From Roseococcus sp. (GTDB lineage Bacteria; Pseudomonadota; Alphaproteobacteria; Acetobacterales; Acetobacteraceae), in the NCBI GenBank assembly GCA_026414745.1, contig JAOAIK010000042.1, positions 53,404 through 117,403 on the forward strand: a stretch of 64,000 bases of DNA. Reading direction: 5' to 3'. The notes under the pieces were generated by a model. That model was not told the origin of the DNA, did not search any database, and saw only the letters and a program-made list of their open reading frames with translations. The translations under genes and the position numbers were made by a program. Shown here piece by piece: positions 328 through 7,030 of the stretch. The first letter of the stretch is position 1, and every line of letters starts with the position of its first letter.

Positions 328-1113
328 ATGCAGATCAGGCTGGACGGGCGGCGCGCGCTCATCACCGGGGGCTCGAAGGGGCTTGGCCTCGCCATGGCGA
401 AGGCCTTCGCCGCGGCGGGCGGGCATGTCGCGCTGGTGGCGCGCGGGGCGGCGGCGCTGGACGCCGCGCGGGCCGAGATCGCGGCAGTGGCCCCGGCAGC
501 CCGCATCGCCGCCGTCGCCGCCGACATCCGCACGCCCGAGGGCTGCACCCAGGCCTTCCGGGAGGCCGAGGCGGCGCTCGGCCCGCTCGACATCCTGGTG
601 AACAACGCCGGCACCTCGCAGCGCGGCCCCTTCCTCGACATCAGCGATGCCGTCTGGCAGGAGGATCTGGACCTCAAGCTCTTCGCCGCCATCCGCCTCT
701 GCCGCCTCGCCCTGCCGGGGATGCGGGAGCGGCGCTGGGGGCGCGTGATCAACGTGCTGAACATCGGTGCGAAGGCGCCGCTGGCCGCCTCGACGCCGAC
801 CAGCGTCAGCCGCGCCGCAGGCATGGCGCTGACCAAGGCGCTGGCGAACGAATTCGCGCCGCACAACGTGCTGGTCAACGCGCTGCTGGTGGGCATCATC
901 GAAAGCGACCAGTGGGTGCGCCGTCACGCCGCCGATCTGCGCAACCTCTCCTGGGAGGCCTGGAAGGAGGAACAGGGCCGCACCGTGCCGCTCGGGCGGA
1001 TGGGGCGGCCGGAGGAGTTCGCCGCGCTCGCCCTGCTCTTGGCGAGCGAGCAGGGCGGCTATGTCACGGGCACGGCGATCAATGTGGATGGCGGGCGCAG
1101 CCCGGTGGTGTGA
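328..1113 (+). CDS. SDR family NAD(P)-dependent oxidoreductase
   Basis: TGGSKGLGLAMA, NNAG and C-terminal GGYVTGTAINVDGG motifs. Confidence 0.9.
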   Translation: MQIRLDGRRALITGGSKGLGLAMAKAFAAAGGHVALVARGAAALDAARAEIAAVAPAARIAAVAADIRTPEGCTQAFREAEAALGPLDILVNNAGTSQRGPFLDISDAVWQEDLDLKLFAAIRLCRLALPGMRERRWGRVINVLNIGAKAPLAASTPTSVSRAAGMALTKALANEFAPHNVLVNALLVGIIESDQWVRRHAADLRNLSWEAWKEEQGRTVPLGRMGRPEEFAALALLLASEQGGYVTGTAINVDGGRSPVV

Positions 1114-1134
1114 TTTTCTAAAACTACACTTGCG

Positions 1135-1162
1135 CGACGTGCTATTTGGCGATAGCACGTCG
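1135..1162. promoter_or_regulatory. Perfect 10-bp inverted repeat CGACGTGCTA-tttggcga-TAGCACGTCG, 2 nt before the YeeE ATG
   Basis: Read directly from sequence; lies between the SDR stop (1113) and the YeeE start (1165). Confidence 0.6.
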
Positions 1163-1164
1163 AT

Positions 1165-2367
1165 ATGCGCGCGATCCTCTCTCCCCGAACCCTGCTTGCC
1201 CTCCTCCCCTTTGCCGCCGGCCTGTGGTGGTTCGGCGCGGGCCCCGGCGCGGGGCTGCTGCCCCACTGGCTGCTGGGCGCGGCGATCGGCGCCCTGCTTC
1301 TGGCCGCGAGCTTCAGCTTCGCCGCGGCCTTCCGCCGCCTGATCGCGGAGGGGCGCGGGGCAGGGGCACGGGCCGTCCTGCTCGCCCTCGGCGCGGGGCT
1401 GCTGCTCTTCCTGCCCGCCCTGGCGGCCGGGGAGCTGTTCGGCCAGCCGGTACGGGGGTTGTATTTTCCCGTCGGGGCCGCGTTGATCCTGGGGGCCTTC
1501 CTGTTCGGGGTGGGGATGCAGCTCGGCGCGGGCTGCGCCTCGGGCACGCTCTTTGCCGCGGGCACGGGCGCGACGCGGCCCTGGCTCACCCTTCTCGGCT
1601 TCGTTGCGGGAGCGACGCTGATGGCCTGGGCGCTGCCGCTCACCGAGGGCTGGGCGGCGCTGCCGCCGGTGCGCCTGCCCGAGCGCTTCGGCTGGGCGGG
1701 GACTCTTGCGGGCGGGCTGCTGCTGGTCGGGCTGCTCTGGCTCGGCCTGCTGGCGCTGGAGCGGCGTCGGCATGGCGCGGTCGAGCCGCTACTGGGCAGC
1801 CGGGCGGGACGCTGGCTGGTGGCGGGGGCGCTCGGCCTTGCCGTGCTGGATTTCGCCACGCTCTGGCTGCTCGGGCGGCCCTGGGCCATCACCTCGGCGC
1901 TGCCGCTCTGGGGCTCGCGGCTGCTGGACGCGACCGGCTGGGGCGACCCCGCCTTCTGGCCCTATTGGGAGGAGCCGACGCGCGCCGAGTTGCTGTTCCG
2001 CCCGCTCGATCAGGACCGCACGGGGGTGATGAACCTCGGCGTGATCGCGGGGGCGGCGGTGGCGGCGGGGCTGGCGGGGCGCTTCCTGCGCGGCGGGGCC
2101 TGGCCCGGGCTGCGGCGGGCGCTGGCCGGGCTGCTGGGCGGCGGGCTGCTCGGCATAGGGGCGGTGCTCTCCAACGGCTGCAACATCGGCGCCTTCCTGG
2201 GCGGCGTCTTCTCCGGAAGCCTGCACGGCTGGCTCTGGTTGCCCGCGGCGCTCGCGGGGAATGCTGTGGGGCTGCTGTTGCGCCCCGCCTTCGGGCTCGA
2301 GGGTGGTCTGACGCTGGCGTCTCGTGGCATGCAGCTCGGCGACGAAGCCGCCCAACCGGCGCGCTGA
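1165..2367 (+). CDS. YeeE/YedE family (thiosulfate/sulfur) transport protein
   Basis: Polytopic; two half-repeats with GAGCASGTLF and SNGCNIGAFLGGVFSGSLHGW motifs. Confidence 0.88.
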   Translation: MRAILSPRTLLALLPFAAGLWWFGAGPGAGLLPHWLLGAAIGALLLAASFSFAAAFRRLIAEGRGAGARAVLLALGAGLLLFLPALAAGELFGQPVRGLYFPVGAALILGAFLFGVGMQLGAGCASGTLFAAGTGATRPWLTLLGFVAGATLMAWALPLTEGWAALPPVRLPERFGWAGTLAGGLLLVGLLWLGLLALERRRHGAVEPLLGSRAGRWLVAGALGLAVLDFATLWLLGRPWAITSALPLWGSRLLDATGWGDPAFWPYWEEPTRAELLFRPLDQDRTGVMNLGVIAGAAVAAGLAGRFLRGGAWPGLRRALAGLLGGGLLGIGAVLSNGCNIGAFLGGVFSGSLHGWLWLPAALAGNAVGLLLRPAFGLEGGLTLASRGMQLGDEAAQPAR

Positions 2368-2373
2368 GCTCAG

Positions 2374-2518
2374 TGCCGCCCGAAGCGGCGGCAATGATGA
2401 GCGGATTGCCTATCCGATGGGCAAAACGGCGGGCCCCTGGGCCTCATCCCGGCGGATGACGGCATGGACCAGCCCGCCGAGCGAAGGCATCTCCCGCCAC
2501 AAGACTGGGAGATGCGAC
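2374..2518 (+). promoter_or_regulatory. Structured 5' leader of the cyanate/nitrate-type ABC operon, ending in an SD-sequestering hairpin
   Basis: Consecutive hairpins: TGCCGCC/GGCGGCA (2374-2393), CGGAT/ATCCG (2402-2416) with possible loop pseudoknot TGCC(2407-2410)/GGCA(2420-2423), GGCGGGC(2428-2434)/GCCCGCC(2472-2478) enclosing TCATCC/GGATGA (2444-2459), and GCATCTCCC(2487-2495)/GGGAGATGC(2507-2515) burying the SD. Confidence 0.5.
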
Positions 2519-3871
2519 ATGGCCCGCCTTTTCCGACGCGACAGCACCCCCGACGCCTGCGCCTGCGGCGTGGCCCATGGGCCCGGCTTCCAATGCACGG
2601 AAGCCCCGGCGGACGGCACCGGCGCGCTCGGCCAAGCGGTGAACGAGGCGGCGCTGCGCGCGGCCTTCCCGAACGCCGCCACGCGGCGCGCCCTGCTCCA
2701 CGCCTTCGGTGCGGGCACGCTGCTCGCGGCGCTGGAGAGCGTGCTGCCGCTCGGCAACGCGCGCGAGGCCCTGGCCCAGCCCGCCGGCGCCCCCGAGAAG
2801 CGCGACCTCAAGATCGGCTTCATCCCCATCACCTGCGCCACGCCCATCATCATGGCGGACCCGATGGGCTTCTATCGCCGGCACGGGCTCAACGTGGAGG
2901 TGATCCGCACCGCCGGCTGGGCGGTGATCCGCGACCGCTCCATCGCGCGCGAATACGATGCGGCGCACATGCTGGCGCCCATGCCGGTGGCGATGTCGCT
3001 CGGGCTCGGCGTGGCCCAGCCCATCCCCTTCGCGGTGGCGGCCATCGAGAACATCAACGGCCAGGCCATCACGCTGGCGAACAAGCACCGCGAGCGCCGC
3101 AACCCGCGCGACTGGCGCGGCTTCCGCTTCGCCGTGCCCTTCGACTTCTCGATCCACAACTACCTGCTGCGCGCGCTGGTGGCCGAGCACGGGCTCGATC
3201 CCGACCGCGACATCCAGATCCGCGCCGTGCCGCCGCCCGAGATGGTCGCCAACCTGCGCGCCGACAACATCGACGGCTTCCTCGGCCCCGACCCGTTCAA
3301 CCAGCGCGCCGTGTTCGACGGGGTGGGCTTCATCCACCTGCTGACGCGCGAACTGTGGGACGGCCACCCCTGCTGCGCCTTCGCCGTGCCGCGCAGCATG
3401 GTGACCGAGACGCCCAACACCTATGCCGCGCTGCTGCGCGCCATCGTCGAGGCGACCTCCTACTCCGACAATCTCGCCAACCGGCGCGAGGTGGCGAACG
3501 CCATCCACGGGCCGAACTACCTCAACCAGCCGCTGACGGTGGTGGAGCAGGTGCTGACCGGCACCTTCGCCAACGGCCTGGGGCAGGTGGTGCGCCAGCC
3601 CAACCGCATCGGCTTCGACCCCTTCCCCTGGCATTCCATGGCGATCTGGATCCTCACGCAGATGCGCCGCTGGAACCAGCTGCAGCGCGACGTGGACTGG
3701 GCGGCGGTGGCCGAGCAGACCTTCCTCGCCCTCGACGCCGGCCGCGCCATGCGCGACCTCGGCCTGCCCGTGCCCGAGAGCCCGCTGCGCAACGAGGTCA
3801 TCCTCGGCCGCACCTTCGACCCGCGCCAGCCCGAGGCCTACATGGCGGGCTTCGCCATCCGCCGGAACTGA
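2519..3871 (+). CDS. CmpA/NrtA family ABC transporter substrate-binding protein, probable cyanate uptake (Tat-type signal)
   Basis: RR-type signal, KIGFIPITCATPIIMADPMGFYRRHGL; followed by permease, ATPase and cyanase. Confidence 0.85.
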   Translation: MARLFRRDSTPDACACGVAHGPGFQCTEAPADGTGALGQAVNEAALRAAFPNAATRRALLHAFGAGTLLAALESVLPLGNAREALAQPAGAPEKRDLKIGFIPITCATPIIMADPMGFYRRHGLNVEVIRTAGWAVIRDRSIAREYDAAHMLAPMPVAMSLGLGVAQPIPFAVAAIENINGQAITLANKHRERRNPRDWRGFRFAVPFDFSIHNYLLRALVAEHGLDPDRDIQIRAVPPPEMVANLRADNIDGFLGPDPFNQRAVFDGVGFIHLLTRELWDGHPCCAFAVPRSMVTETPNTYAALLRAIVEATSYSDNLANRREVANAIHGPNYLNQPLTVVEQVLTGTFANGLGQVVRQPNRIGFDPFPWHSMAIWILTQMRRWNQLQRDVDWAAVAEQTFLALDAGRAMRDLGLPVPESPLRNEVILGRTFDPRQPEAYMAGFAIRRN

Positions 3872-3875
3872 GGCC

Positions 3876-4724
3876 ATGACGGCGGCTGTTCCCGTCTGGC
3901 GCGCGGCGGCGCTCTCGCTCGCGCTGCTCGGCCTGCTGCTGCTCGGCTGGGAGATGGCGGTGAAGGCGCCCGCCGCCTCCGGCCCCGCCGTGGATCCGGA
4001 GCTGGCGGCGCTGCTCTCGCCCGCCGCCGCCGCGGGCGGGCAGAGCGCGATGCCCGCGCCCTCGGAGATCGGCGCGCGGCTGCTCGAGCTGCTCTCCGAC
4101 CCCTTCCACCGGCGCGGCACCAACGACCAGGGCATCGGCATCCAGATCGCCTGGTCGCTCTGGCGCGTCGCGGCGGGCTTCACCCTGGCCGCCCTCGTCG
4201 CCATCCCGCTCGGCTTCCTGATCGGGATGAGCCCGCTGCTGAACGCGGCGCTGAACCCCTTCATCCAGGTGCTGCGGCCCGTCTCTCCGCTCGCCTGGAT
4301 GCCGCTCGCGCTCTACACGATCAAGGACAGCTCGGTGTCCTCGATCTTCGTCATCTTCATCTGCTCGGTCTGGCCGATGCTGCTCAATACGGCCTTCGGC
4401 GTGGCCAGCGTGCGGCGGGAGTGGCTCAACGTCGCGCGCACGCTGGAGGCGGGGCGGCTCAAGACCGCCCTGCGCGTGATCCTGCCCGCCGCGGCGCCGA
4501 CGATCCTCACGGGCATGCGAATCTCCATCGGCATCGCCTGGCTGGTGATCGTGGCGGCCGAGATGCTCGTGGGCGGCACGGGCATCGGCTACTGGGTGTG
4601 GAACCAGTGGAACAATCTCTCCATCGCCGACATCGTGATCGCCATCCTGATGATCGGCCTCGTGGGCCTCGCGCTCGACCGGCTGCTCGGCCTCGTCGCG
4701 CGCGCTGTGGCGTGGCAGGAATGA
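3876..4724 (+). CDS. ABC transporter permease (nitrate/sulfonate/bicarbonate/cyanate type)
   Basis: BPD-type permease; EWLNVARTLEAGRLKTALRVILPAAAPTILTGMRISIGIAW. Confidence 0.9.
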   Translation: MTAAVPVWRAAALSLALLGLLLLGWEMAVKAPAASGPAVDPELAALLSPAAAAGGQSAMPAPSEIGARLLELLSDPFHRRGTNDQGIGIQIAWSLWRVAAGFTLAALVAIPLGFLIGMSPLLNAALNPFIQVLRPVSPLAWMPLALYTIKDSSVSSIFVIFICSVWPMLLNTAFGVASVRREWLNVARTLEAGRLKTALRVILPAAAPTILTGMRISIGIAWLVIVAAEMLVGGTGIGYWVWNQWNNLSIADIVIAILMIGLVGLALDRLLGLVARAVAWQE

Positions 4725-5584
4725 ACGCGATGAGCCCCCCGCTGCCGGCCGCGGCGCGCTACGTCTCCATCGAGGGGATCGCGCGGCGCTTTCCGGGGCT
4801 GACCGTGTTCGAGGACGTGTGGTTCCACATCGAGCGCGGCGAGTTCGTCTGCCTCGTCGGCCATTCGGGCTGCGGCAAGACCACCATCCTCAACATTCTC
4901 GCCGGGCTCGACCAGCCCAGCGCGGGCGCGGTGGTGGTGGACGGGCGCGAGATCACCGGCCCCTCGCTCGACCGCGCGGTGATCTTCCAGGGCCATGCGC
5001 TGATGCCCTGGCTGTCGGCGCTGGACAACGTGGCCTTCGCCATCTCCTGCCGGCATCCGGACTGGGAGAGGGGCCGGGTGCGCGAGGCGGCGCGCGCCGC
5101 GCTGGCGCGGGTGGGCCTCGCCCAGGCGGCCGAGCGCAAGCCCGCGCAGCTCTCGGGCGGCATGAAGCAGCGCGTGGGCATCGCGCGCGCGCTCGCGGTG
5201 AAACCCAAGCTGCTGCTGATGGACGAGCCGTTCAGCGCCCTCGATGCGCTCACGCGCGGCACCCTGCAGGAGGAGGTGAGCCGCCTCGTCACCGAGGCGG
5301 GGCAGACCGCCTTCATGATCACCCATGACGTGGACGAGGCGATCCTGCTCGCCGACCGCATCCTGCTGATGACCAACGGCCCCGAGGCGCGGGTGGCGGA
5401 GATCGTCCACAACACGCTGCCCCGCCCGCGCGTGCGGGCGAACCTGCACCACATGCCCGGCTATCACGCGCTGCGCGACCACATCATGGATTTCCTGATC
5501 ACGCGCAGCCGCACGCTCGCGGGCCGGCCGCCCGAGGGCTGGGATGCGCGCCGCCCGCCCGTGGTGGCCCCGGCCGCCGCCTGA
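4721..5584 (+). CDS. ABC transporter ATP-binding protein (NrtD/SsuB type)
   Basis: Walker A GHSGCGKTT, signature LSGGMKQRVGIARAL, Walker B LLLMDEPFSALD; ATGA overlap with permease. Confidence 0.92.
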   Translation: MNAMSPPLPAAARYVSIEGIARRFPGLTVFEDVWFHIERGEFVCLVGHSGCGKTTILNILAGLDQPSAGAVVVDGREITGPSLDRAVIFQGHALMPWLSALDNVAFAISCRHPDWERGRVREAARAALARVGLAQAAERKPAQLSGGMKQRVGIARALAVKPKLLLMDEPFSALDALTRGTLQEEVSRLVTEAGQTAFMITHDVDEAILLADRILLMTNGPEARVAEIVHNTLPRPRVRANLHHMPGYHALRDHIMDFLITRSRTLAGRPPEGWDARRPPVVAPAAA

Positions 5585-5625
5585 GACTTCCCGACCACCG
5601 CTGACGACGCACAGGAGTGACCGCG

Positions 5626-6108
5626 ATGACGCGCGCCGACCTCACCGAGAAGATCCTCGACATCAAGCGCGAGAAGGGCTGGAGCTGGAAATACATCTGC
5701 GAGGAGATCGGCGGCGTGGCGCCGACGCTGATCGTGGGCGCGCTGCTCGGGCAGATGAAGCTGGTGAAGCCTCTCGCGGCCAAGGCGGCCAAGCTGTTCG
5801 GCCTCAGCGAGGCGGAGGAGCGCATGCTGAACGAGGTGCCCTATCGCGGCACGCCCATGCCGCCCACCGACCCGCTGATCTACCGCTTCTACGAGATGGT
5901 GATGGTCAACGGCCCCGCCTGGAAGGCGCTGATCGAGGAGGAGTTCGGCGACGGCATCATGTCCGCCATCGACTTCGACTTCGAGTTCGAGCGCATGGCG
6001 CACGAGAAGGGCGACCGCGTGAAGATCACCATGACCGGCAAGTTCCTGCCCTACAAGTACTACGGCAACGAGCAGGGCATCCCCGCCTACGGCTACAAGG
6101 AGGAGTGA
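5626..6108 (+). CDS. cynS: Cyanate hydratase (cyanase)
   Basis: ALLGQ, PTDPLIYRFYEMVMVNG, EEEFGDGIMSAIDF, TMTGKFLPYK match cyanase motifs; AGGAG upstream of ATG 5626. Confidence 0.95.
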   Translation: MTRADLTEKILDIKREKGWSWKYICEEIGGVAPTLIVGALLGQMKLVKPLAAKAAKLFGLSEAEERMLNEVPYRGTPMPPTDPLIYRFYEMVMVNGPAWKALIEEEFGDGIMSAIDFDFEFERMAHEKGDRVKITMTGKFLPYKYYGNEQGIPAYGYKEE

Positions 6109-6116
6109 GTCCCGCC

Positions 6117-6139
6117 CCGCGCGGCCTTGCGCCGCGCGG
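6117..6139 (+). terminator. GC-rich hairpin CCGCGCGGC-cttgc-GCCGCGCGG after cynS
   Basis: 9-bp perfect stem directly downstream of the cynS stop; no U tract, so terminator or attenuator role is uncertain. Confidence 0.35.
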
Positions 6140-6217
6140 CCGGAGGCGCCATGCAGCGGCCGCGGTGCGCCCGGCGCGCCGCGTCCGTGGTGTTCGTCGC
6201 GGAGGAGGGAGGGGCGC

Positions 6218-7030
6218 ATGGCGGGGGAACTCAGGGTCGGCATCGCGGGGCTCGGCGCCATCGGGCTGCCGCTGGCCAGGGCGCTGGACCAGGGGGTGGA
6301 GGGGCTCTCGCTCGCCGCCGTCAGCGTGCGCGACCAGGCGAAGGCCGCGGCCCATCTCGCGGGCTTCCGCCACCGGCCCAGGCTCGTGCCGCTCGCCGCG
6401 CTGGCCGAGGAGGCGGAGATCGTGGTGGAGGCCGCCCCCGCCGCCGTCTTCGAGGAGGTGGCGCGCGCCGCCATCGCGCGCGGGCGCATCTTCGTCCCCT
6501 CCAGCGTGGGCGCGCTGCTGCCGCGCATGCATCTGGTGGAGGAGGCGAAGCGCACGGGGGCGCGCATCGTGGTGCCCACCGGTGCGCTGCTCGGCCTCGA
6601 TGCCGTGCGCGCCGCCACCGAAGGCGCGGTGGAGAGTGTCACCATCCAGACGCGCAAGCCGCCGCGCGGCCTCGCCGGCGCGCCCTATCTGGAGCAGCGC
6701 GGGATAGACATCTCCGGGATCGCCGAGGCCACCTGCGTCTTCCGCGGCAACGCCTATGACGCGGCGCAGGGCTTCCCGGCCAATGTGAACGTGGCGGCGG
6801 CGCTGGCGCTGGCCGGCATCGGGCCCGAGCGCACCATGGTCGAGATCTGGGCCGATCCCGCGCAGACGCGCAACACGCACACCATCCTGGTCGAGGCCGA
6901 GGCCGCCCGCCTCTCCATGACCATCGAGAACGTGCCGAGCGAGGAGAACCCGCGCACCGGGCGGATCACGCCGCTCTCCCTCCTCGCCTGCCTGCGCGGG
7001 CTGACCAGCACACTGAAGGTGGGGAGCTAG
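6218..7030 (+). CDS. L-aspartate dehydrogenase-like (NAD-dependent)
   Basis: VGIAGLGAIGLPLARAL, GALLGLDAVRAATEG, FPANVNVAAALALAGIG, NTHTI and IENVPSEENPRTGRITPLS. Confidence 0.82.
   Translation: MAGELRVGIAGLGAIGLPLARALDQGVEGLSLAAVSVRDQAKAAAHLAGFRHRPRLVPLAALAEEAEIVVEAAPAAVFEEVARAAIARGRIFVPSSVGALLPRMHLVEEAKRTGARIVVPTGALLGLDAVRAATEGAVESVTIQTRKPPRGLAGAPYLEQRGIDISGIAEATCVFRGNAYDAAQGFPANVNVAAALALAGIGPERTMVEIWADPAQTRNTHTILVEAEAARLSMTIENVPSEENPRTGRITPLSLLACLRGLTSTLKVGS

Follow-up and report, generated by a model that had tools for sequence, protein, structure and literature searches.

The intergenic leader in front of a cyanate/nitrate-type ABC transporter operon in Roseococcus sp. raises the question of why a ribosome-binding site (RBS) should lie at the end of a strongly folded stretch of RNA. 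An earlier note on this DNA read the arrangement, in which successive hairpins precede a terminal hairpin holding the Shine-Dalgarno (SD) sequence, as a candidate translational riboswitch. Here, we analyze the leader within the window (i.e., the whole 64,000-nucleotide stretch of DNA under study) and compare it with a sister genome (G010) and with the leaders of orthologous operons.

The leader and its stems

The leader separates a YeeE-type transporter gene from the SBP gene of the operon (Table 1), which continues 3' of the SBP gene with genes for a permease, an ATPase, CynS and an aspartate dehydrogenase-like protein. The SBP start at 2519 is backed by ortholog alignment; an SBP with its N-terminus extended through the leader, where the frame is open from 2324, was rejected as unconserved and interrupted by a stop in the G010 frame. 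The SDR-YeeE-SBP gene order (window 328-7030) was seen only in the window genome and in G010, and in the other Roseococcus relatives, where the region is covered, the SDR gene lies immediately upstream of the SBP gene with no YeeE gene between them. In the AT-rich gap before the YeeE start (1165), a perfect 11-bp inverted repeat (CGACGTGCTAT-ttggcg-ATAGCACGTCG, 1135-1162), of which G010 carries a degenerate form (GTGATATTCTGGAATAGCAC), is a candidate operator, possibly within the promoter region that now drives the YeeE gene and the cyn operon.

Table 1. Features of the leader and its neighboring genes, in window coordinates.
Feature	Position	Strand	Remarks
Sulf_transp (YeeE-type) gene	1165-2367		upstream neighbor of the leader
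Intergenic leader, YeeE gene to SBP gene	2368-2518	+	z -4.2 relative to shuffles and to 160 background segments
Hairpin 1, TGCCGCC/GGCGGCA	2374-2380/2387-2393	+	shortly 3' of the YeeE stop
Hairpin 2, CGGAT/ATCCG or TTGCC/GGCAA	2402-2424	+	the two pairings are mutually exclusive unless pseudoknotted
Closing stem, CGGCGGGC/GCCCGCCG	2427-2434/2472-2479	+	8 bp
Inner hairpin within the closing stem, TCATCC/GGATGA	2444-2449/2454-2459	+	
Degenerate sigma-54-like site, CGGCATGGACCAGC	2460-2473	+	GG-N9-GC, spacing one short; inferred from position relative to the orthologs' intact sites
SD-sealing hairpin, GCATCTCCC-N11-GGGAGATGC	2487-2495/2507-2515	+	9 bp, -15.3 kcal/mol
SBP gene (NMT1_2 family)	2519-3871	+	Pfam PF13379, E 1.3e-81
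cynS cyanase gene of the operon	5617-6108	+	Pfam PF02560, 4.2e-34; NCBIfam cyanase

The stems drawn in the earlier note are present at the exact coordinates, with one adjustment: the closing stem exists, but it has 8 bp rather than the 7 bp (2428-2434/2472-2478) first described. The complementarity of TGCC (2407-2410) and GGCA (2420-2423) is confirmed in the window. The terminal hairpin is the 9-bp stem that had been proposed, with the GGGAG of the SD (2507-2511) in its 3' arm, 7 nt before the ATG. The predicted cost of opening the RBS is 15-16 kcal/mol for RNA that begins between 2368 and 2440, and ~10 kcal/mol for RNA started at or after 2494.

Folded on its own, the leader RNA (2368-2521) has an MFE of -77.6 and a z of -4.20, which none of 200 shuffles equaled and which a repeat run reproduced (z -4.21). 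For comparison, 160 other 154-nt segments of the same 64 kb have a mean z of -0.03 (sd 1.01, minimum -2.7), a background that was drawn from the window and is to be read with the caveat that GC-rich DNA folds readily. The SD hairpin part by itself (2486-2521) gives a z of -4.08; with flanking coding DNA included, the z of the fold is only -1.72. A perfect 9-bp stem occurs anywhere in 5.3% of the shuffles and ends within the last 20 nt in 0.85%, and in a crude sample of gene starts in the window the stem at that place never exceeds 8 bp. These values support the proposal that the SD is buried in a stable terminal hairpin within a significantly structured leader. They also bear on the main rival explanation, namely that the structure is largely incidental and stems from GC-rich intergenic DNA and local inverted repeats (mutational quasi-palindromes or REP-like elements) with no regulatory role, against which it counts that the z of the leader lies far beyond the window background.

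The sister genome and the riboswitch reading

G010 is the closest ortholog with an alignable leader (94% protein identity, and the same SDR-YeeE-SBP order), and the window-type leader is known from these two sequences only. In the SD hairpin, all 8 pairs that have letters in both leaders are kept, a retention that again speaks against an incidental origin. Hairpin 1 keeps its 5 inner pairs, with 1 pair broken and 1 gapped. In hairpin 2, TGCC/GGCA is kept and CGGAT/ATCCG, stem 1 of the H-type pseudoknot that had been suggested for 2402-2424, loses 2 of 5 pairs; the pseudoknot reading was consequently rejected, and the TTGCC/GGCAA hairpin is favored. Between the two sequences, the 8 pairs of the closing stem comprise 3 changed on both sides (compensated), 3 broken and 2 unchanged, and the 6 pairs of the inner hairpin include 2 breaks and 1 gap. 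The G010 leader folded alone has a z of -2.34 and an architecture that differs overall from that of the window, except for the SD hairpin. Judged from sequence, the middle "aptamer" domain is largely rewritten in G010, and of the stems only the SD hairpin keeps all of its alignable pairs; across relatives it is the complementarity of the SD hairpin's arms, and not their sequence, that persists, which suits a simple fold-back hairpin.

A metabolite-sensing translational riboswitch (for cyanate, bicarbonate, carbamate or similar), with 2374-2479 as its aptamer, would account for a layout in which the sealed SD comes after a structured domain. The SD could be released by an alternative pairing of 6 bp (2428-2433/2493-2498), and total pair retention in the sister exceeds that of shuffles. 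However, with 3 of 8 pairs lost from the closing stem and 2 of 5 from the pseudoknot stem, the candidate ligand domain does not qualify as conserved, and the covariation across orthologous leaders to which the earlier note had looked is not apparent for the upstream domain, judged from two sequences. Nor did the proposed Infernal/Rfam check lend support: the whole window gave 0 matches at the gathering threshold, and lax filters returned two chance-level snoRNA matches (E 1.8 and 4.3). A covariance model of the two leaders (R1) matches strongly only in the window genome and in G010; its search of 36 sources (mostly ortholog loci) and 120 family genomes yielded no further strong match, the best other one having an E of 0.003 per genome over the 120 genomes. 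The orthologs' leaders are unrelated and mostly hold sigma-54 promoters at this place. Among the listed papers that mention both cyanate and riboswitch, titles and the opening lines of abstracts describe no cyanate riboswitch. The leader thus resembles translational riboswitches in being structured and in sealing its SD, and differs from them in having no conserved aptamer, Rfam match or phylogenetic spread; we consider this reading extremely improbable.

Hairpins 1 and 2, which lie close behind the YeeE stop and are the better conserved among the upstream elements, could also serve the YeeE transcript as a hairpin-rich 3' end (terminator or processing site) or as an attenuator. Yet the leader holds no intrinsic terminator pattern, and such a role leaves the SD hairpin unaccounted for, making this a decidedly improbable explanation.

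Sigma-54 promoters and fold-back pairing in orthologous leaders

A sigma-54 site (GG-N10-GC, with TGGCAY/TTGCW as the criterion) was found in 77 of 105 orthologous leaders and, in a larger set, in 110 of 145. Sigma-54 control of such operons is known from cynFABDS of Pseudomonas pseudoalcaligenes (PMC6627978) and from operons that join COG0715/0600/1116 with the cyanate lyase COG1513 (PMC12316311). The operon type is the same here, and most orthologous leaders have the -24/-12 site; the window leader differs in that the -12 element is lost and no recognizable promoter is present. In the window and in G010, the YeeE gene intervenes and only a degenerate CGGCATGGACCAG(C) is left of the sigma-54 site. 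No GG-N10-GC site scoring at least 10.5 was found in 2368-2518, the best remnant having a spacing of 9, and a search of the leader for a sigma-70 promoter found none, so that a hidden promoter of either type within the leader was rejected. Loss of rpoN as the cause is ruled out by its presence in the window genome. Roseococcus relatives, among them L032, L034 and L005, have the SDR gene as their direct upstream neighbor, with a sigma-54 site behind it. The loss of the site coincides with the presence of a sulfur-type transporter gene, which separates the SDR gene from the cyanate operon; the YeeE insertion need not be the cause of the loss, because L003, L033, L006 and L013 have no intact sigma-54 site and no YeeE gene there either.

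By eye, the orthologous leaders contain inverted repeats with the 3' arm over the SD and the 5' arm at about -11 to +2 of the start site, with sequences that differ between species; all start sites (TSS) in this analysis are predictions. Across 110 leaders, pairing of the 5' arm (-11..+5) is stronger with the RBS region of the same leader than with species-swapped ones (z 8.5, to be read with the fact that the hypothesis arose on part of its test data and that the relatives are not independent), with z values of 7.0 in the Acetobacteraceae, 3.9 in other alphaproteobacteria and 2.5 in beta and others. The scores are 14.58 for own against 12.25 (sd 0.29) for swapped pairing in 73 non-redundant leaders, and 14.9 against 12.0 in the 12 Roseococcus leaders. 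A class-level sample of 21 leaders, fetched afterwards and thus out-of-sample, gave a z of 1.55 (p 0.08). Shifted 16-nt blocks from elsewhere upstream have z values from -1.4 to 3.1, and the excess of about +1.9 stands above background by no wide margin, because upstream DNA in general carries a modest excess of local inverted repeats (up to +1.2 score units). In glnK/glnB leaders, taken as a control, there was no pairing excess (z 0.70, n=19). Separately, we noticed that the unrelated sigma-54 leaders L290, L296, L320 and L345 of the family pair -11..+5 with the RBS region, e.g., by CTCCGCC/GGCGGAG in L296.

The position of this structure is given by the mean folding z of the 110 leaders as their 5' end is moved, which is -1.31 at -16, -1.25 at -11, -0.94 at -7, -0.68 at -5, -0.35 from -3 and -0.05 from +1, the predicted TSS. 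Length-matched upstream DNA stays level at -0.55 to -0.69, and the extra structure therefore ends at the predicted start; replacing -11..-1 by the segment of another leader gives a mean z of -0.42 to -0.62. The cost of opening the RBS is 10.7 kcal/mol for the native leaders, 9.3 kcal/mol with swapped segments and 8.2 kcal/mol from +1 (p 4e-6), and gains above 4 kcal/mol occur in 31% of native leaders and in 10% of those with swapped segments. The feature is strong in only about a third of the relatives. In the 21 out-of-sample leaders of the class set, the opening cost moves the same way but weakly (p 0.09), with gains above 4 kcal/mol in 24% against 6%. By the cruder measure of SD pairing probability, the SBP leaders did not gain significantly, and opening cost was used instead. 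The orientation of the upstream gene did not correlate with the feature in gene calls that are crude and noisy. The effect is also seen, in weaker form, with other sigma-54 genes (9.85 against 9.04, p 0.03), and given this and the enrichment of inverted repeats upstream, part of it may be general or mutational.

These comparisons weigh in both directions on an incidental origin. In its favor are the excess of local inverted repeats elsewhere upstream, the baseline mean z of about -0.6 of upstream DNA, the multi-copy genomic repeat of which the upstream hairpins in several Roseococcus leaders form part, and a window leader that is not shared past one sister; it does not explain why the structure in relatives stops at the predicted TSS, and we hold it to be possible, with the odds against it. 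A further alternative is that a regulator recognizes the dyads in the DNA, as operator or enhancer, and that they are not RNA elements. G.T mismatches are not favored over A.C in the arms (7 against 10), so that the RNA strand is not singled out, and this asymmetry was set aside as an uninformative discriminator. The arms of close relatives, however, differ in sequence yet stay complementary, which a sequence-reading protein would not need, and a role as DNA sites seems improbable.

The proposed role of the SD hairpin

The reading that we prefer, with a probability of roughly 0.45 and hence slightly below even odds, is that a fold-back hairpin seals the SD and damps the translation of RNA arriving from upstream genes, as a remnant that has outlasted its sigma-54 promoter. 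The hairpin resembles the fold-back type of the orthologs and looks like a lineage-specific version of it. The SD of the SBP gene pairs with a segment 24-32 nt before the start codon, which would make for poor translation of any RNA running in from the SDR-YeeE genes. For many orthologs, the corresponding 5' arm maps to about -11 to -1 of the sigma-54 promoter, and RNA from the operon's own promoter would start (at the predicted TSS) without that arm and leave the ribosome site open, with read-through RNA being sealed. The -12 element appears to have been lost in both the window species and G010, with the YeeE gene now upstream and the hairpin staying; we infer a loss of the promoter as opposed to its relocation. 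Since the promoter is gone and the hairpin is kept, the latter is probably now a constitutive translational damper on RNA from the YeeE side, with the operon read from upstream. An insulating function cannot work fully in the window, because the window itself is without the promoter. The wider proposal, that sigma-54 nutrient operons, above all those of the cyanate/nitrate ABC type, commonly carry a TSS-straddling hairpin with co-varying arms, such that only own-promoter RNA is well translated and stray read-through is silenced, we regard as rather unlikely.

A known counterpart is the lysozyme gene e of phage T4. For it and related T4-type lysis genes, PMC3014915 (citing McPheeters 1986) describes a hairpin that seals the SD and holds a late promoter within its 5' strand. 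Here too, the SD lies in the 3' arm of the hairpin, which is stable, and in many relatives the 5' arm also overlaps the start region of the promoter, so that own-promoter RNA is predicted to escape the hairpin. The window case differs in belonging to a cellular nutrient operon of sigma-54 type and in its degenerate promoter. An own promoter from which RNA begins inside or past the 5' arm, as in the T4 e type, was not found in the window leader and is present on average in the relatives, going by predicted TSS. The transposase genes of IS10 and IS50 have fold-back protection from outside transcription and are similar in that the ribosome site is hidden only in RNA entering from outside; the window case involves no mobile element and differs in its geometry relative to a sigma-54 start.

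Should the straddling hairpin prove real, it would amount to a simple device, made of RNA, by which a cellular operon answers to its own promoter and no other, as so far known from phage and transposons. It would also account for the sequence complementary to the RBS that is often found in sigma-54 leaders shortly before the start. For the window, the analysis mainly removes a riboswitch candidate, and suggests that a nitrogen-controlled promoter was lost and its RNA hairpin kept.

Other hairpins were seen in the relatives' leaders. In L032, L007, L034 and L010, an AGGAAAC-N3/4-GTTTCCTGC hairpin 5' of the sigma-54 site is a repeat that occurs in 4-16 places per genome in six Roseococcus relatives, once in G010 and nowhere in the window genome, and it is followed in these four leaders by a second hairpin, e.g., GCGAGAGGGC/GCCCTCTCGC. 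The leader of L111, an ortholog with 93% protein identity, combines an intact sigma-54 site with a nested structure of TGATCCG/CGGATCA and CCCGAC/GTCGGG and with CCTGA/TCAGG beside the SD, and it is a different solution to the same layout. In L116, L225, L226 and L036, which belong to one Acetobacteraceae genus, the transcribed leader keeps a small AGCGC-N3-GCGCT hairpin just 3' of the predicted start, with G.U variants such as AGTGT/GCGCT.
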